From Brevibacterium limosum (GTDB lineage Bacteria > Actinomycetota > Actinomycetes > Actinomycetales > Brevibacteriaceae), in assembly GCF_011617705.1 (NCBI RefSeq), contig NZ_CP050154.1, forward strand, positions 2,170,001 to 2,234,000: 64,000 nucleotides of DNA. Reading direction: 5' to 3'. The notes under the pieces are model-generated. The model searched no databases. It saw nothing but the letters and a program-made list of their open reading frames with translations, and was not told where the DNA came from. A program made the position numbers and the translations under genes. Positions 32,772 through 40,667 of this stretch are shown here, one piece after another. Numbering within the stretch: the stretch's first letter is position 1; each line of letters opens with the position of its first letter.

Positions 32772-34256
32772 TCACGCCACGATGCGGGCCCTGCCGGTCG
32801 GTCCTCGTCTGGTCATCGACTTCGCGTCGTCCCAGGCCGCGGCCAATCGCGGCCCCACCTGCGCCAATTCGGTCTCCGGCACCGTATAGGGCAGCCGGAT
32901 CCACCGATCGAGTCCGCCGGCCGGTGCGAAGTTCGGCCCGGCGACGAGGCGGAGACCGTGCTTCCTGGCGGCGATCGAGAGCACCCCGGAGCGCGACTCC
33001 GGCAGTTCGGCCCACAGCGCCATACCGCCCGAGGGGACAATGAGCTTCCACTCGGGCAGCCAGTCCCTGATCTGGGCAGCCAGGAGGTCGCGGGCCGCTC
33101 TGAGACGGGTCCGGCAATCGGCGACGATGGTGTCGTGGTCGCCCATCAGCTCCGCGGCCACCAGCTGTTCGAGCACCGGGGCGCCGAGATCGAGGCCGAG
33201 GCGTGAGGCGGCGACGTGATCGACACGGCGCCGGGGAATGCGCATCCAACCGATCCGCACGCCGCCCCAGAAGATCTTGCTCACGCTGCCCACCGTCACC
33301 GAATCGGGGATGAGAGCCGCCATCGGAGTGAGCGGTGTCGCTTCGTCCAGTCCGAGCTCGACGAGGGATTCGTCGATGACGGGCACGACGCCGTGGCCCC
33401 GCAGGACCCGCGCCAGGTCCGGTCGCTGCGATTCGGGAAGCAGGGAACCGGTCGGATTGTGGTAGTCGGGGATGAGGTAGGCGCTGCGTGGGTGCGTCTG
33501 ACGGATCAGCTGCTCCATCGCGTCGATGTCCCAGTGATGGCCCTCAGCCCCGAATTCGAGCGGATAGCTGACCAAAGCGGCTCCGGCGCCCTCCAAGGTG
33601 GCGATCGCGTTCGGGTAAGTGGGGCTTTCGATGAGGACGCGCTTCGACGATCCTGCCCGGCCGTTCGCCTCATGCGGTTCGACGTCGAGAAGAGCCCGGA
33701 CAGCGATGGCCGTTCCTCCGAGGGAGCCCGAGGTGATGAGGATCTGGGCGGGGTCCGTCGGCGCGCCCCTGCGTGAGTAGCGGTCGGCGATGAGCTCACG
33801 CAGGACCGGAAGACCCGAAGGATAGTATCCGGTCCCTGGGAGATAGGCGCCGAGCTTCGACAGTGCCCGCTCATAGGCGCCGAGGATGTCCGGGGCGGCA
33901 ACCGGCGCGGTGCAGGTGAGGTCGATCTCCGTCTCATCCGCGCCCGCGGGAGAGAGCAGATGATCGATGCGACCCCCGGGGACGCTGGGCAGCTGTACGA
34001 CACTGCCGGAACCGCGACGAGTGAGGATGTACTCCTGGTCTCGCAGCAGTGCGTAGGCGCGCCCCGTCGTCGTCCGCGACAGCCCGGTGGCGACGGCGAG
34101 TTCGCGTTCGCTCGGCATCCTCGCCCCGACCGGGATGCGCCCGTCGGTGATCGCTGCAGCCACTGCCGCGGCCAGCGTTTCGAAGGCCGGCGACTTCCAC
34201 GGACCATCGCCGATGATGCCCGCTACGCGCTTCGCGCCCACGACCGGCGCGCTCAC
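32772..34256 (-). CDS. MocR-family regulator (YczR/PdxR type)
   Basis: A 494-aa transcription factor with an N-terminal GntR winged helix (about residues 20-85, PVGARMPSERELAVATGLSRTTTGRAYALLRD) and a type I aminotransferase-like domain (about 120-480). The PLP-binding Lys is in VGSVSKIFWGGVRIGW, with ESPTYPNAIATLEGAG and LIPDYHNPTGSLLPESQR earlier. MocR proteins sense PLP or PLP adducts of amino compounds. It is divergent from a yczE-type gene, a pairing known for YczR regulators, and direct repeats lie between the two genes. The start is GTG at 34256. Confidence 0.88.
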   Translation of the reverse strand: MSAPVVGAKRVAGIIGDGPWKSPAFETLAAAVAAAITDGRIPVGARMPSERELAVATGLSRTTTGRAYALLRDQEYILTRRGSGSVVQLPSVPGGRIDHLLSPAGADETEIDLTCTAPVAAPDILGAYERALSKLGAYLPGTGYYPSGLPVLRELIADRYSRRGAPTDPAQILITSGSLGGTAIAVRALLDVEPHEANGRAGSSKRVLIESPTYPNAIATLEGAGAALVSYPLEFGAEGHHWDIDAMEQLIRQTHPRSAYLIPDYHNPTGSLLPESQRPDLARVLRGHGVVPVIDESLVELGLDEATPLTPMAALIPDSVTVGSVSKIFWGGVRIGWMRIPRRRVDHVAASRLGLDLGAPVLEQLVAAELMGDHDTIVADCRTRLRAARDLLAAQIRDWLPEWKLIVPSGGMALWAELPESRSGVLSIAARKHGLRLVAGPNFAPAGGLDRWIRLPYTVPETELAQVGPRLAAAWDDAKSMTRRGPTGRARIVA

Positions 34257-34362: not shown

Positions 34363-35055
34363 ATGACAACGATGAGAGCACCGAAACGTCAGCTGGCCAA
34401 CGTCGGTCCCATCGCACAGCTGCGCGGAGGACGGCTGTGGCGACGCATCCCTCAGCTCATCGTCGGCCTCTACCTGTTCGGTGCTTCGATGGCGATGATG
34501 GTCAACGCCGGTCTGGGCATGATGCCCTGGGATGTGCTCAATGCCGGCGTCCTGCGACATGTGCCGGTGACCTTCGGCACCGTCGTCACTGTGCTCTCGT
34601 TCGTCGTGCTGCTCATCTGGATCCCCTTGCGGCAGCAGCCGGGCATCGGCACGGTCCTCAACGCCCTGCTCATCGGGCCGTTTCTCGATCTCACCCGCCT
34701 GTTCCTGCCCGCGCCCGAACACCTCGGCTGGCAGATCGTGCTCATGGTCGGCGGCATCGTCCTCAACGGGCTCGCCTCGGCGATGTACATCGGCTCCCAA
34801 TTCGGTCCCGGTCCCCGCGACGGGCTGATGACCGGGATCGCCCGCGTCACCGGATGGTCGATCCGGCTCGTGCGCACCCTCATCGAAGTCACCGTCGTCG
34901 GGATCGGGTGGCCGCTGGGCGGAGTCGTCGGCGTCGGCACCGTTCTCTACGCGCTGGGGATCGGCCCGATCACCCAGGCGCTCCTTCCCACGTTCACCGT
35001 CGAGCTCCGCCCACGCTCGAAGCCGTCGACGACCGACGAACCCGCCGACGACTGA
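34363..35055 (+). CDS. yczE: YczE/YyaS-type membrane protein
   Basis: A 230-aa protein with about five to six helices. The family pattern is clear: IPQLIVGLYLFGASMAMMVNAGLGMMPWDVLNAG, then a central NGLASAMYIGSQFGPGPRDGLMTGIARVTGWSIRLVRTLIEVTVV near GWPLGGVVGVGTVLYALGIGP. Members are predicted transporters whose genes often sit opposite YczR-type MocR regulators. The substrate is unknown. The tail (residues 215-230) is charged. Confidence 0.82.
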   Translation: MTTMRAPKRQLANVGPIAQLRGGRLWRRIPQLIVGLYLFGASMAMMVNAGLGMMPWDVLNAGVLRHVPVTFGTVVTVLSFVVLLIWIPLRQQPGIGTVLNALLIGPFLDLTRLFLPAPEHLGWQIVLMVGGIVLNGLASAMYIGSQFGPGPRDGLMTGIARVTGWSIRLVRTLIEVTVVGIGWPLGGVVGVGTVLYALGIGPITQALLPTFTVELRPRSKPSTTDEPADD

Positions 35056-35073
35056 GCTGCAGGTCGCCGACCG

Positions 35074-36447
35074 TCAATCCATGGTGTCGAGGATGTCGAC
35101 GAGATCCTCGAACGTGGTGAGCGGATTGACGATCGCGAACCGTGCATTCGGCCGCCCCGCGTGCGAACTGGGCACAACGAACGCACGCTGATCCTCCAAC
35201 AGCCGATCCGACCACGCGTCATAGTCCGACCGTTCCCACCCATCGCGTTCGAACACGACGACCGAGAGTTCGGGTTCGCGCACGAGCCGCAGATGCTGCC
35301 GTCGCCTGATCTCGGTGGCGATCCGGCGAGCCAGATCGATCGAATGGCCGATCGCCTCCCGGTACGTTTCGGCTCCGTAGCTGGCCAGCGAATACCACAG
35401 CGGCAGGCCGCGAGGGCGTCTGGTCAGCTGGATGGCGAAGTCCGAGGGGCTCCAGTCCTGCGCGTCGGTGAGCGTATCGAGATATTCGGCCTTCTGCGTG
35501 TGCGCTCGGCGTCCCAGATTCGGATCGCGGTAGATCAGTGCGCAGGCGTCGAAGGGAGCGAAGAGCCATTTGTGGGGGTCGACGATGAGCGAATCGGCCC
35601 GGTCGACTCCGGTGAACTTGTGTCGTGCCTGCGGTGAGAGCATCGCGGCCAGGCCGTAAGCGCCGTCGATGTGGAGCCAGAAGTCGCGTTCGTCCTTGAG
35701 CGCTGCGATGCCGGCGATGTCGTCGATGGTGCCGAAGTTCGTCGTTCCCGAGGTGGCCACCACCGCGATCACGGCATCCCCGTGGTCGTTCAGTGCCTCC
35801 CGTACCCCGTCAGGGCGCAGGATTCCGTCCTCCCCTGTGGCCACGGGCGCGATGTCGACGTCCATGACCTCAGCCGCCGAGGCGACCGATGAGTGGGCTT
35901 CGGCGCTGCACACGATCACCCACCGTCCCGGTCGAGTCTCGCCGAGCTTCTCCTTCTGTGCGTTTCGGGCGGCGACGAGGGCGGAGAGGTTGCCGATCGT
36001 GCCTCCTTGGACGAACACTCCCCCGGAGCCCGCCGGCAGCCCGAATTCTCCAGCCAGCCAACGCAGGACTTCGTTCTCGGCATGGACGACTCCGGCGCCT
36101 TCGAGCCAGGAGCCGCCGTAGAGCGCGCTGGCGAAGACGACGAGGTCGAAGGCGACAGCGGCCTTCGTCGGGGCACTGGGGATGAAGGACAGGTACTTCG
36201 GATGATCGGTGGAGATGCAGGCGGGGGCGAAGATGTGTTCGAAGATCGCCAGCGCCCGCGCTGATCCCAGCCCTTCCTCGGTGACGGTGGGTCCGGCCAG
36301 TCTGCGCAGCTCGGCTTCGGACGTCGGATGGTCGAGCGGGGTGTCCTCGGCCAAGGTGCGACGACGAGAGTATTCGAGCACGAGATTCACGAGGTTTCGA
36401 GTCTCATCGGAGACGACGTGCATGCGGGAATGAAGGGTGTCGGTCAT
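35074..36447 (-). CDS. PLP-dependent (aromatic) L-amino-acid decarboxylase
   Basis: A 457-aa group II decarboxylase (DOPA decarboxylase/glutamate decarboxylase family). It has EGAGVVHAENEVLRWLAGEFGLP, GGVFVQGGTIGNLSALVAAR, SAEAHSSV (His stacks on PLP), HIDGAYG (Asp binds the pyridine N) and VDPHKWLFAPFD with the PLP Lys. The substrate class cannot be read; aromatic or acidic amino acids are possible. ATG 36447 is chosen for GAGGAG 6 nt upstream. It is divergent from the XRE-TetR regulator, 161 nt start to start, so it could be a target of that regulator. Confidence 0.86.
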   Translation of the reverse strand: MTDTLHSRMHVVSDETRNLVNLVLEYSRRRTLAEDTPLDHPTSEAELRRLAGPTVTEEGLGSARALAIFEHIFAPACISTDHPKYLSFIPSAPTKAAVAFDLVVFASALYGGSWLEGAGVVHAENEVLRWLAGEFGLPAGSGGVFVQGGTIGNLSALVAARNAQKEKLGETRPGRWVIVCSAEAHSSVASAAEVMDVDIAPVATGEDGILRPDGVREALNDHGDAVIAVVATSGTTNFGTIDDIAGIAALKDERDFWLHIDGAYGLAAMLSPQARHKFTGVDRADSLIVDPHKWLFAPFDACALIYRDPNLGRRAHTQKAEYLDTLTDAQDWSPSDFAIQLTRRPRGLPLWYSLASYGAETYREAIGHSIDLARRIATEIRRRQHLRLVREPELSVVVFERDGWERSDYDAWSDRLLEDQRAFVVPSSHAGRPNARFAIVNPLTTFEDLVDILDTMD

Positions 36448-36541
36448 GGGGGCTCCTCGGAAGCTGACGATGGCGATGGGGATCACCCACCGATAACGAG
36501 ACTATCGGCATCGGCGCCTCCTGTGAGGAAAACCGCGACCT

Positions 36542-36602
36542 ATCGCAAGTTCTGATCCTCAGTCATATCTACTTGCGATCATCGTCTGCGCTCGGGTACA
36601 TT
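36542..36602 (+). promoter_or_regulatory. Promoter with inverted repeat before XRE-TetR gene
   Basis: TTGCGA (36573-36578) and TACATT (36597-36602) are 18 bp apart. TACATT ends 6 nt before the ATG with no RBS, so the transcript should be leaderless. ATCGCAAGT (36542-36550) and ACTTGCGAT (36571-36579) form a 9-bp perfect inverted repeat whose right arm covers the -35, a likely autorepression site that could also affect the divergent decarboxylase gene. Confidence 0.65.
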
Positions 36603-36608
36603 CGCCGT

Positions 36609-37532
36609 ATGAGCGACCACCACCCTCCCGGGTCGACATCGATCCGGGCCAAGGAAGCCATCTCCGGGTCTGGACTCTCCCAGCGGCGCGTCGCCGAAGC
36701 GATCGGCATCGATGAGACGAAGCTGTCCAAAGCCCTCTCCGGTCGCCGCCGGTTCACCGCCGATGAGCTCCTCGGTCTGGCCACGGCTACGGGAGTGACG
36801 GTGCGGTGGCTGCTCGGGGACGAGTCGCAGGTGTCCGCGCTTCCGCCGAACTCTGCGACCGTCGCCGGCAGCGACGAGGAAGCGACACCGAAGCGCAGCA
36901 TCGCCGAGGCTGCTTGGACGCTCTTCGGTCGGCACGGCTTCGACGCGGTGCGCATCGCCGATATCGCGGCGGCCTCCGGTGTCTCCGCGCCGAGCATCCA
37001 CTACTACTTCGCGAACAAGTCCGAGCTCTTCGATGCCGCTCTCGACTATTCGGTCAAGCTCGCCTTCGACAGGCAGATCGCGTGGCTCGACGACATCGCC
37101 GATCCCGCGCAGAGGCTCGAACGCCTGCTCGAGCTGCAGTCGCCGTTGGGGCGCACGGAACGCGGCGAATGGTCGATCTGGCTGCAGACCTGGGCGCGAC
37201 TGGCCCTGGAGGACTCGGCATTGTCGAACTATCCGCTCAGCTACGAACGCTGGTCCCGCACCGTCCAGGCCACGATCGAGGATGGTCAGCGGACGGGCTG
37301 TTTCCGCACCGGTGATCCGCGTGCGATGGCCGATGAGCTCACCTCTCTGCTCGACGGACTCGGCATCAAAGTGCTCACGGGAGTGATGGACACCGACACG
37401 TTCGCACTCCGACTGCGCTCCTATCTCGACCGCGCCGTCACGCACCCGTCCGCAGCAGCGGCCGTATCGACCACCACTGAACCCACAACCCGAACAGACA
37501 AGTCCACCGATCGATCCAAGGAGTCATCATGA
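36609..37532 (+). CDS. XRE-TetR fusion regulator of carnitine/betaine operon
   Basis: A 307-aa protein with two DNA-binding domains. Residues about 12-70 are a Cro/C1-type HTH (SQRRVAEAIGIDETKLSKALSGRRRF, then TVRWLLGDE as in family members). Residues about 97-143 are a TetR HTH (VRIADIAAASGVSAPSIHYYFANKSELFDAALDY), followed by an all-helical ligand-binding half and a Thr/Ser-rich tail. It overlaps the BKACE gene by 4 nt (ATGA) and so is co-transcribed with its likely target operon. The ligand is unknown; carnitine or an intermediate is inferred from context. Upstream there is a leaderless promoter and an inverted repeat. Confidence 0.85.
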   Translation: MSDHHPPGSTSIRAKEAISGSGLSQRRVAEAIGIDETKLSKALSGRRRFTADELLGLATATGVTVRWLLGDESQVSALPPNSATVAGSDEEATPKRSIAEAAWTLFGRHGFDAVRIADIAAASGVSAPSIHYYFANKSELFDAALDYSVKLAFDRQIAWLDDIADPAQRLERLLELQSPLGRTERGEWSIWLQTWARLALEDSALSNYPLSYERWSRTVQATIEDGQRTGCFRTGDPRAMADELTSLLDGLGIKVLTGVMDTDTFALRLRSYLDRAVTHPSAAAAVSTTTEPTTRTDKSTDRSKESS

Positions 37533-38440
37533 ACCGCAGAGTCATCCTCACCTGTGCCGTCACGGGAGCCGGGGACACCACCGGAAAGAGCGAACACGTG
37601 CCCGTCACCCCCGCAGAGATCGCCGACGACGCGATCGCGGCGGCCCGCGCCGGTGCCTCCGTCGTCCACATCCACGTGCGTGACCTCGAGACCCGACAGG
37701 GTTCACGGGACGTCGCCTACTATCGGGAGGTCGTCCGCCGCATCCGCACTGCGGACGTCGACCCGGTCATCAACCTCACAGCCGGCATGGGCGGCGACCT
37801 CGTCATCGACCCACAGGACCCGCTGACCACGATGCCCGGCACCGATCTCATCAACGCCCTCGACCGCCTCCCCCACGTCGAGGAGCTGCTGCCCGAGATC
37901 TGCACGATCGACTGCGGCAGCCTCAACTTCGGTGAGGGATCGAACCTCTACGTCTCGACACCGGACATGCTCCGCGAAGGATCGAAACGGATCCAGACTC
38001 TGGGTGTACGTCCCGAAATGGAGATCTTCGACACCGGCAATCTGTGGTTCGCCAACGTCCTCGTCGAAGAGGGCCTCATCGACGCACCACCGCTGTACCA
38101 GCTGTGCATGGGCATCCCCTATGGCGCTCCGGCCGATCCCGGCCTGCTGGCTGCGATGGTGAATCTGCTGCCCAAGGGCGCTCAGTTCACGTCCTTCGCC
38201 ATCGGCGCCAACCAGCTGCCGTGGGTCGCCCAATCCGTGCTCGCCGGCGGTCACGCACGCGTCGGACTCGAGGACAACCTCTACCTGTCGAAGGGGGTCA
38301 AGGCCACGAACGCCGATCTGACCGCACGCGCCGTCGACATCATCACCAATCTCGGCTCGTCCGTGGCCACCCCGGATGAGGCGCGTGAGATCCTCGACCT
38401 GCGGGTGCAGACCCCGACCATCACCGGAGGCGATCTGTGA
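37529..38440 (+). CDS. cdhC: BKACE family 3-keto acid cleavage enzyme (CdhC-like)
   Basis: A 303-aa Zn-dependent enzyme that cleaves a beta-keto acid by acetyl transfer to or from CoA. Zn ligands are expected from H47 and H49 in VVHIHVRD and E248 in RVGLEDN; GANQLPWVAQSVLAGGHARVGLEDNLYL and RPEMEIFDTGNLWFA are family motifs. Next to a carnitine dehydrogenase the likely reaction is 3-dehydrocarnitine plus acetyl-CoA giving betainyl-CoA and acetoacetate. It overlaps genes on both sides by 4 nt. The substrate assignment is by context. Confidence 0.85.
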   Translation: MNRRVILTCAVTGAGDTTGKSEHVPVTPAEIADDAIAAARAGASVVHIHVRDLETRQGSRDVAYYREVVRRIRTADVDPVINLTAGMGGDLVIDPQDPLTTMPGTDLINALDRLPHVEELLPEICTIDCGSLNFGEGSNLYVSTPDMLREGSKRIQTLGVRPEMEIFDTGNLWFANVLVEEGLIDAPPLYQLCMGIPYGAPADPGLLAAMVNLLPKGAQFTSFAIGANQLPWVAQSVLAGGHARVGLEDNLYLSKGVKATNADLTARAVDIITNLGSSVATPDEAREILDLRVQTPTITGGDL

Positions 38441-39933
38441 ACGCTTCCACTCCCGCCTACCCCGACTTCGATGCCATCGACACCATCACCTGCGTCGGCG
38501 CCGGAACGATCGGCGGCGGCTGGGCCGCATACTTCCTCGCCCAGGGGTACCGGGTGAAGATCTGGGATCCGGCCCCGGACGCCGGCGACAAGTTCGCCCG
38601 CCTCCTCGATGCGGCGTGGCCGGCACTGGCTGAACTCGATATGGTCGACGGAGCCGACCGCACCGCCTGGTCCCTTCACACCGACCTCGCCGAGGCGGTC
38701 ACCGGCAGCGGATTCGTCCAGGAGTCCGCTCCCGAAGATCTCGCCCTCAAGCGCGGCCTCCTCGCGCAGATCGACGGGGCGTGTCCGCCGAATATCGTCA
38801 TCAGCTCATCGACCTCGGGCTACAGCATGACGGAGATGGCCACCGAGGCGACCCACCCCGAACGTCTCGTCGTCGGCCATCCGTTCAACCCGCCCTACCT
38901 CATCCCCCTGGTCGAGGTCGTCGGGGGTCAGTCCACCTCGGCTGCCGCCGTCGACTGGGCCGCGGACTTCTTCACCCATATCGGCAAGTCCGTGATCCGG
39001 ATGGACCGTGAGGTCCCCGGTTTCATCGCCAACCGTCTGCAGGAGGCGCAGTGGCGGGAGGCCCTGCACATGGTCGAGCAGGGTGAGGCCACCGTCGAGC
39101 AGATCGACCGCTCGATCACCGACGGCCCCGGTCTGCGCTGGCCGTTCCAAGGTCCGATGCTGACGTTCCACCTCGCCGGCGGCGAGGGTGGAATGGCGCA
39201 TATGCTCGACCATTTCGGGCCCTCGCTGAAGTCTCCGTGGACCCGGCTGACCGCCCCGGAACTCAGCCGGCAGCTGCGCGATGATGTCGTGGCCGGCTGT
39301 GACATAGAAGCCGGTGAACGCTCCATCGCCGACCTCGTGGCCCATCGTGATGCCGGAATCATCGCCCTGCGTCGGCTCAACGGGCAGTTGGCCGCCACCG
39401 CTGCTGCATCCGACAGTGCTGACCGGGCGACGGACGACGGTGCTCCGGAATGGTCCGACGACCCGGATGCGCCTGCGGCTGCGGTCGAGTCCTCCTCGCT
39501 TCTCGACGCCTGCACCAGCGAGGTCGTGCCCGAATGGATCGATTACAACGGGCACATGTCCGAGGCGTTCTACGTCCTCGTCTTCGGATTCGCGACCGAT
39601 CAGGTGATGGATCAGCTCGGCCTCGATGCCGCTTACCGGGAGTCGACGAAGGCGTCCCTGTACACCGTCGAATCCCATATCCGCTACCTCGACGAGGCGG
39701 CCCTCGGCGACCGTCTCACCGTCGTCCCGCATCTCGTGAGCGCCGGTGAGAAGAAGCTGCACCTGGCCTATGAGATGTACGTCGGCGACCGGCTCGTGTC
39801 GACCGAGGAGATCATTGCTCTCCACGTCGACCAGGCCGAGGACCGTGTCGTGGCCTTCCCCGCAGCTGTGACCGAGCAGATCACGCAGATCGAGACAAGC
39901 CGCCCGGACTGGGTCGGTCGTTCGATCGGCTGA
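38437..39933 (+). CDS. cdhA: L-carnitine dehydrogenase-thioesterase fusion
   Basis: A 498-aa fusion. Residues about 12-320 form a 3-hydroxyacyl-CoA-dehydrogenase-type fold with NAD motif GAGTIGGGW at 21-29, SSSTSGYSM, VVGHPFNPPYLIPLVEVVGG and VPGFIANRLQEAQWREALHMVEQGEATVEQIDR. A low-complexity linker spans about 325-352. Residues about 355-490 form a hotdog thioesterase (EWIDYNGHMSEAFYVLVF and SHIRYLDEAALGD). Carnitine dehydrogenases with a fused betainyl-CoA thioesterase are known in other bacteria. The pair with BKACE completes carnitine to glycine betaine. The start is GTG 38437, overlapping the BKACE stop. Confidence 0.88.
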   Translation: MNASTPAYPDFDAIDTITCVGAGTIGGGWAAYFLAQGYRVKIWDPAPDAGDKFARLLDAAWPALAELDMVDGADRTAWSLHTDLAEAVTGSGFVQESAPEDLALKRGLLAQIDGACPPNIVISSSTSGYSMTEMATEATHPERLVVGHPFNPPYLIPLVEVVGGQSTSAAAVDWAADFFTHIGKSVIRMDREVPGFIANRLQEAQWREALHMVEQGEATVEQIDRSITDGPGLRWPFQGPMLTFHLAGGEGGMAHMLDHFGPSLKSPWTRLTAPELSRQLRDDVVAGCDIEAGERSIADLVAHRDAGIIALRRLNGQLAATAAASDSADRATDDGAPEWSDDPDAPAAAVESSSLLDACTSEVVPEWIDYNGHMSEAFYVLVFGFATDQVMDQLGLDAAYRESTKASLYTVESHIRYLDEAALGDRLTVVPHLVSAGEKKLHLAYEMYVGDRLVSTEEIIALHVDQAEDRVVAFPAAVTEQITQIETSRPDWVGRSIG

Positions 39934-40115
39934 CCGACCCGCCCTCTGCTGCGGGCCGGTCGGAGACGCATCCGCCGGTCCGCGGCCGCCGGACGTTCGG
40001 CGACTCATCAGGAATCGAGAAGTCAGAGACGATTGCGGGGCGCTACCCTGATAGTCAGCGCTGCAACCGAACTCGCCGGGCACACCGCCCGGCACCGATC
40101 CTTCGAGGAGACGCT

Positions 40116-40667
40116 ATGTCCACGCACGAAGCCACGGCCACAGACATCACCTTCACCGCTGTCACCGAGGTGCTGGGCGACCGCCCCATTCTGCGCCTGC
40201 CGCAGGAGGCCAGCGATCGGCTGCCCTCCCGCGGACAGGTCGCGATCACCGGCACCCTCGACGGTGCCGAGTTCAGCACCGTCATCGAACCCGATGGTCG
40301 ACGCGGTCATTGGATCAGCCTCGATGAGGACCAGTGGGAAAGCCTCGGTGCAAGAGAAGATGCCACGGTCGAAGTCGACCTGACCCCGACGAAGAACTGG
40401 CCGGAGGTGACGGTCCCCTCGGATCTCCGCACGGCTCTCGATGCTGCCGACGATCTCGACGAGGTGTGGACCGGCCTGACGCCGATGGCCCGGTGGGAAT
40501 GGGTGCGCTGGATCAAGTCGACGAAGAATGCCGATACCCGTGCGCGCCGAGTGGAAGTGGCGATCTCGAAGCTCGAATCAGGCAAACGACGTCCCTGCTG
40601 CTTCGACCTGTCTTCATGCACGGATCCCGAACTGTCGAAGAGCGGCAAGCTCCTCGGACTGACCTGA
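40116..40667 (+). CDS. YdeI/OmpD-associated family protein with DUF1905
   Basis: A 183-aa protein. Residues about 12-95 are a DUF1905 beta barrel (FTAVTEVLGDRPILRLPQEASDRLPSRGQVAI and VEVDLTPTKNWPEVTVPSDL). Residues about 100-165 are the OmdA/YdeI helical domain (AWTGLTPMARWEWVRWIKS-like; here LDEVWTGLTPMARWEW, then KNADTRARRVEVAISKLESGKRRPCCFD). Members are linked to bacteriocin or stress protection, but no mechanism is firm. Its stop codon lies inside the first unit of the 16-bp tandem repeat. Confidence 0.8.
   Translation: MSTHEATATDITFTAVTEVLGDRPILRLPQEASDRLPSRGQVAITGTLDGAEFSTVIEPDGRRGHWISLDEDQWESLGAREDATVEVDLTPTKNWPEVTVPSDLRTALDAADDLDEVWTGLTPMARWEWVRWIKSTKNADTRARRVEVAISKLESGKRRPCCFDLSSCTDPELSKSGKLLGLT

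Follow-up and report, generated by a model that had tools for sequence, protein, structure and literature searches.

Gene content of the locus

The window, by which we mean the whole 64,000-nucleotide stretch of Brevibacterium limosum DNA that was analyzed, contains a gene for an XRE-TetR regulator followed by two overlapping genes on the same strand, with a decarboxylase gene diverging from it (Table 1). The N-terminal domain of the regulator is of the XRE (Cro/C1-type HTH) class, matching PF01381 at 36.9 bits against a cut-off of 23. It is followed by a TetR_N domain (PF00440, 57.3 bits, cut-off 24) and a helical ligand domain (PF13977, 59.6 bits, cut-off 27), an arrangement that places the protein in the TetR family. 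With the BetI equivalog model TIGR03384 it scores 48.8 bits against a cut-off of 201.3 and thus falls outside that group. In the structure model the XRE domain and the TetR part are each ordered, and the linker between them (residues 78-90) has a pLDDT below 50. We placed the start of the regulator at ATG 36609 rather than at the TTG at 36573 given in the list of open reading frames.

Table 1. Features of the regulator locus, in window coordinates
Feature	Position	Strand	Description
Divergent PLP-dependent decarboxylase	35074..36447	-	PF00282
Arm A, ATCGCAAGT	36542..36550	+	Half-site TCGCAA at 36543-36548 (slot A)
Inner element TGA-N7-TCA, TGATCCTCAGTCA	36553..36565		Conserved between the arms; proposed TetR-head site
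Arm B, ACTTGCGAT on the plus strand	36571..36579	-	Half-site TTGCGA at 36573-36578 (slot B), also the likely -35 hexamer
Slot C position	36582..36587	+	TCGTCT here, degenerate; from sequence and comparison with relatives
Likely -10 hexamer, TACATT	36597..36602	+	From sequence and comparison
XRE-TetR regulator, 307 aa	36609..37532	+	HTH_3 (22-68), TetR_N (98-144), BetI-type TetR_C_6 (166-276)
BKACE, beta-keto acid cleavage enzyme	37529..38440	+	PF05853, E 4.3e-93; overlaps the end of the regulator gene
3-hydroxyacyl-CoA-dehydrogenase-like / thioesterase fusion	38437..39933	+	Top NCBIfam match carnitine 3-dehydrogenase

The fusion protein scores 423.6 bits with the NCBIfam model for carnitine 3-dehydrogenase, below its cut-off of 592. 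In 99 of 102 non-paralogue loci the regulator is followed by a BKACE gene; the other three are L045, where the fetched stretch ends, L074 and L149. Given these family matches and what is known of the pathway, a role of the operon in carnitine metabolism is likely. The decarboxylase is an optional neighbor, adjoining the regulator in 36 of the 47 loci from the genus. Beside it in the window lie a second divergent pair, the genes for a MocR-like regulator YczR (32772-34256, minus strand) and a membrane protein YczE (34363-35055, plus strand), both of which exceed their NCBIfam cut-offs.

An inverted repeat overlaps the likely regulator promoter

A preliminary description of this DNA had reported perfect inverted arms 20 bp apart over the promoter of the regulator gene. 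The arms are as described, since ACTTGCGAT is the exact reverse complement of ATCGCAAGT and the spacer is 20 bp. The same description had one arm overlapping the -35, and arm B does hold TTGCGA, which lies 18 bp before TACATT; the two are plausible as the -35 and -10 hexamers. A generic consensus promoter scan listed no promoter for this pair, and the -10 columns are moderately conserved (mean of 0.90 bit over 34 genus loci). As 6 bp separate the likely -10 from the start codon, the regulator transcript would probably be leaderless.

Searching for the same arms elsewhere, as had been proposed, we found a single occurrence of the exact pair in the 4,253,182-base genome. In the window the arm 9-mer is found at 0 mismatches in these two places only, and its one-mismatch copies are not enriched there (6 observed, 11.75 expected). 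Perfect 9-bp inverted repeats with spacers of 3 to 40 are nevertheless common in the window, with 87 listings, many of them nested within one hairpin. Dinucleotide shuffling of the 160-bp intergenic region produced such a repeat in 38 of 2000 cases. Taken alone, and from the window only, the inverted repeat is weak evidence for a site, so the case rests on conservation. A terminator-like site on the minus strand (36548-36533) overlaps arm A, with one found against 0.1 expected in shuffles, and we think it a by-product of that arm. An RNA element was also considered and rejected, as an Rfam search of 35000-40500 gave no match at gathering scores and transcription probably starts downstream of the arms.

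The arms and an inner element are conserved in the genus

The regulator gene is present in 47 of 57 genomes of the genus (scored at E up to 1e-30), and TTGCGA/TCGCAA half-sites stand upstream of it in all 47. The preliminary description had named absence of the repeat from other strains as a result that would speak against it; in addition to the ubiquitous half-sites, both arms are kept at the spacing of the window in 34 of the 47 loci, where the first bases of TCGCAA and TTGCGA are exactly 30 bp from each other. Thirty of these have no mismatch in the two hexamers and four have one. In nine further loci the upstream half-site is flipped to give TTGCGA...TTGCGA, 31 or 32 bp apart (one of the nine with a mismatch), and two have TCGCAA...TCGCAA 39 bp apart, without slot B. 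Half-sites are present in the last two, L041 and L045, and no spacing class fits them.

Over the 34 loci of the window spacing, arm A carries 1.96 and arm B 1.90 bits per column, compared with 0.25 in the upstream flank. Between the arms lies an inner element, similar in form to a TetR operator, that the preliminary description had omitted. Its TGA and TCA carry 1.91 and 1.72 bits per column and the intervening N7 carries 0.69, and exact TGA-N7-TCA is found in 26 of the 34 loci, the other eight departing from it. At 80% identity the 34 sequences amount to an effective 21.7; many loci are closely related, and the counts are therefore not independent. The window copy of the inner element is imperfect; some relatives, for example in Nesterenkonia and Microbacterium, show it more clearly as CTGAYT-N3-ARTCAG. 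The arms are not equidistant from the center of this core (13.5 bp for A, 16.5 bp for B), so a dimer would be expected to sit on it asymmetrically. In many relatives slot C is TCGCAA, completing TTGCGA-N3-TCGCAA with slot B. A chance repeat, which the window alone could not exclude given the shuffles, is excluded by the conservation in the genus, and we regard this comparison of sequences as decisive for a conserved composite site.

The preliminary description had pointed out that the repeat is also upstream of the divergent decarboxylase. This is correct in position, as the start of that gene is about 95 bp from arm A. The decarboxylase is not the main partner of the site, for 11 of the 47 genus loci lack it and still keep the half-sites, and we rejected an operator chiefly for this gene on the same grounds.

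The composite is found mostly at the regulator promoter

We then searched the 57 genus genomes with the composite TCGCAA-N4-TGA-N7-TCA-N7-TTGCGA, allowing up to 2 mismatches. The search returned 38 rows in 34 genomes: 34 at the regulator promoter, two that are other-strand readings of the same places, and two elsewhere (G005:C6 and G053:C1:3787140, both with 2 mismatches). At this threshold none of the 10 genomes without the regulator gene contains a match, and the reversed control pattern matches twice over all 57 genomes. Thirteen of the 47 genomes with the regulator do not match the composite in its window form, their sites being of other forms.

Within the window genome, allowing up to 3 mismatches yields the one exact place and two places at 3 mismatches. 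The latter (G000:C1:2334495-2334530 and 2933360-2933395) are identical 36-bp sequences and probably copies of one repeated element. We also considered a wider regulon and rejected it: TTGCGA-N3-TCGCAA with one mismatch is no commoner in this genome than its reversed control (7 places and 8, respectively), one of the seven being a paralogue promoter, and we claim no further targets.

Half-sites accompany the regulator beyond the genus

Among 396 genomes of the order, 38 have a regulator match, 10 of them outside the genus, and all 10 were examined. Exact half-sites lie within 330 bp of the regulator in five (L068-L070, L074, L076), and L067 has half-sites with one mismatch only. In four genomes of another genus (L071-L073, L075) the exact half-site is absent from the 6.5-7 kb around the regulator. 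ABC-transporter genes precede the regulator in L072, and for this reason we examined 12 kb further upstream in these four genomes. Each of them has a distal site of the form TTGCGA...TTGCGA-N3-TCGCAA, 5.6-5.8 kb upstream of the regulator, with direct arms 32 or 33 bp apart plus the third half-site. Three of the four distal stretches also hold one or two isolated half-sites, and we saw no clear inner element in these genomes.

From a scan of named genomes we obtained the best 80 of 223 confirmed relatives and analyzed 52 loci (L115-L166), seven of which repeat genomes already counted. TTGCGA, counted with its complement, is the commonest hexamer upstream of the regulator and is present in 52 of 52 loci. 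We counted it 117 times in the 17,117 bases upstream, compared with 60 times in the remaining 414,232 bases of these loci, or 6.8 against 0.14 per kb. Since the non-upstream background is mostly coding, the reversed motif is the better control, and it occurs five times upstream. A third half-site making TTGCGA-N3-TCGCAA is found in many of the 52 loci and is the form of the Amycolatopsis and Pseudonocardia loci, the half-site spacing being different in the Amycolatopsis group. In L069, L131 and L135, two of which are named Cryobacterium, the paired half-sites are upstream and a single TCGCAA is nearer the gene, which reverses the usual order. The suggestion in the preliminary description that a regulator with two DNA-binding domains might use a bipartite site is supported by the half-sites in every genus locus and in every one of these further loci, and the site appears to be at least tripartite, with an arm, a TetR-like core and a second arm.

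The upstream half-site has changed orientation

Spacing and orientation labels were assigned by a rule that we set, and the spread of spacings partly reflects this rule. Over the 102 loci, 62 are inverted, 15 direct and 25 unlabelled; four of the unlabelled loci became direct after the distal sites were found. On a tree of the 102 regulators the label changes between inverted and direct at least six times, or seven when the four distal sites are included. Four changes are forced by well-supported branches (five with the distal sites), and five remain when the labels of loosely placed rows are dropped. The tree is a quick one with several long branches, which makes the exact number of flips soft. 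Nevertheless, more than one flip of the upstream half-site is needed on this sequence-based tree. The flipped arm in relatives suggests that one head of the protein could be loosely tethered, and the predicted disorder of linker 78-90 between two ordered domains would fit such a tether.

Paralogues share the half-site and differ in the inner element

We also examined 10 loci of a second, paralogous XRE-TetR group, one of which was checked by Pfam. Nine of the 10 have TTGCCA-N3-TCGCAA just before the gene. These nine loci have ACT-N12-AGT starting exactly 23 bp before the gene, and TGA-N7-TCA is absent from the 40 bp before it. The ACT-N12-AGT element was spotted by eye and then counted, and the paralogue loci are related, so the nine do not amount to nine independent cases. 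The tenth, L086, has TAGCGA-N3-TCGCAA, which is outside the rule used. In the window genome a paralogue outside the window (L077 2490-6904; G000:C1, about 966.5-970.9 kb) stands before a peptide-type ABC transporter operon (SBP_bac_5, BPD_transp_1); its promoter site consists of ACT-N12-AGT plus TTGCCA-AAA-TCGCAA.

In an alignment of 29 proteins, three paralogues included, all 29 have K38, L39, S40, K41 and L43 in the predicted XRE recognition helix. The TetR recognition helix has a single invariant residue, Y132, with S126 and F134 coming close. A half-site common to the paralogues together with a different inner element fits a division in which the half-site is read by XRE and the inner element by TetR. 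We take this as support, not proof, of that assignment. It is about an even question whether a broader generalization holds, namely that these are modular operators of a four-headed repressor family in which TTGCGA is a constant XRE word, the TetR core can be exchanged between paralogues, and a tether lets the half-site flip, move or pair up without loss of control.

Discussion

We propose, with a probability of roughly 0.85, that the inverted repeat forms the outer portion of a composite operator bound by the adjacent XRE-TetR regulator, which would repress its own operon by placing TetR heads on the core and XRE heads on the arms and would let go in response to a quaternary amine. This reading draws on the conservation of the site, its spacing, its co-occurrence with the gene, the distal site where none lies near, and the arm flips. 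We envisage that a repressor dimer sets its two TetR heads on the inner TGA-N7-TCA, which would hold the dimer there, and that the two N-terminal XRE heads, on flexible tethers, reach the flanking TTGCGA half-sites. Since the downstream half-site is the likely -35, binding would be expected to shut the promoter: with slot B occupied, RNA polymerase would be excluded from the promoter of the regulator, BKACE and carnitine dehydrogenase genes, resulting in autorepression. A quaternary amine, probably carnitine or its metabolite, would then enter the BetI-type pocket and cause release. An inducer of this class is likely because homologue structures contain choline or what appears to be trimethylamine.

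The assignment of heads could be swapped or shared, so that the TTGCGA arms would be bound by TetR and the inner element by XRE. As a 15-bp palindrome, TTGCGA-N3-TCGCAA has a size that would also suit a TetR dimer, and because all aligned members, paralogues included, have both domains, the loci examined offer no natural single-domain control, such as a homologue without the XRE domain. We nevertheless consider the swap unlikely: the most constant DNA word, TTGCGA, pairs with the most constant helix, that of XRE (KLSKxL), the inner element differs in the paralogues, and variable spacing and flipped arms would suit a tethered head better than a rigid TetR dimer. Reading of the arms by a separate stand-alone regulator, such as an XRE protein that co-regulates the carnitine genes, is very unlikely. 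In its favor, the protein assigned to the arms is a prediction from sequence; against it, the composite at up to 2 mismatches keeps to the regulator gene with two rows elsewhere, is missing from genomes without that gene, and has a near-identical half-site pair as its counterpart at the promoters of the paralogous XRE-TetR genes themselves. Slighter still is the chance of a coincidental match, in which one arm would simply be a -35 and the other an accident or the -35 of the divergent gene. The frequency of such repeats in shuffles and the overlap of arm B with the likely -35 speak for this explanation; against it stand the fixed spacing of arm A in 34 of 47 genus loci and the half-sites kept in the 11 loci that have no divergent decarboxylase. 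A composite operator read by the adjacent XRE-TetR regulator therefore remains our preferred explanation.

Among solved structures, the nearest homologue is the Saccharomonospora viridis TetR-family protein 4ICH (related PDB entries 4KWA with choline, 4NEL, and 4JNN with benzamidine). Residues 32-310 of 4ICH align with profile positions 3-280 of 286 (E 6.4e-103), so the two have the same order of XRE and TetR domains over nearly their full length, and the TetR part of our model superposes on structures of the 4ICH group with TM 0.89-0.91 by target length. By sequence 4ICH has 311 residues, of which 193 are in the structure compared, and its XRE part thus seems not to be visible there. The title of 4KWA reports a homologue crystallized with choline, quaternary-amine binding being known from this entry title only, and we read the ligand of 4NEL as trimethylamine from a partial title, 'N,N-dimethylmet'. 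DNA is mentioned in none of the structure titles seen for the group, and no paper on these entries is among the matches listed in a literature search by PDB code.

Several characterized regulators share features with this protein. BetI is a choline-sensing TetR repressor whose type of C-terminal domain is matched here, and it is not known to carry an XRE domain. CdhR of P. aeruginosa is of the AraC type. Like the role proposed for our operon, its function lies in carnitine catabolism (PMC5806209). Mce3R of Mycobacterium tuberculosis, a TetR-type repressor with two non-identical HTH motifs per chain, binds a non-palindromic operator composed of two 25-bp asymmetric sites with 53 bp between them; unlike our regulator, it consists of two fused TetR units rather than XRE plus TetR (PMC11667970). 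Members of the ArdK/KorA and AraC families are HTH regulators that can accept direct or inverted repeats, and ArdK does so by rotation of one HTH domain; these proteins differ in having one kind of DNA-binding head each, as described there, and the abstract mentions no second element between half-sites (PMC9723621). A double-headed TetR repressor and HTH proteins on direct or inverted repeats are known. Passages of PMC4482099 and PMC11353897 contain nothing on the XRE-TetR family, and no carnitine XRE-TetR regulator or XRE-TetR composite operator is described among the literature matches listed, from a search that left most subscription journals outside.

Bacterial repressors are mostly considered to recognize symmetric sites through a single type of head, according to the abstract of PMC9723621. 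In the present case a single protein appears to recognize two distinct words simultaneously. The tolerated spacings and orientations can be read from about 100 natural operators, and the tree carries several half-site flips. This makes it possible to test how much freedom a tethered second DNA-binding domain confers and by what means paralogues sharing an XRE head keep off one another's sites. In addition, the regulator is a likely Actinomycete sensor of carnitine or related amines that could be used as a biosensor.

Two sets of relatives bear on what the family controls. In the upstream stretch of the L072 genome (L174), the distal site is just before the solute-binding protein gene of the transporter, and the regulator, BKACE and carnitine dehydrogenase genes follow the ABC transporter genes, so that one operator at the head of the cluster may serve them all. 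The solute-binding protein shares 57% identity with the one encoded next to the paralogue in the window genome. Uptake of carnitine or a related compound by the transporter is hinted at by this arrangement. L074 and L149 encode XRE-TetR relatives with neither BKACE nor carnitine dehydrogenase in the fetched stretch and keep TTGCGA half-sites upstream, suggesting that the family may control other pathways too.
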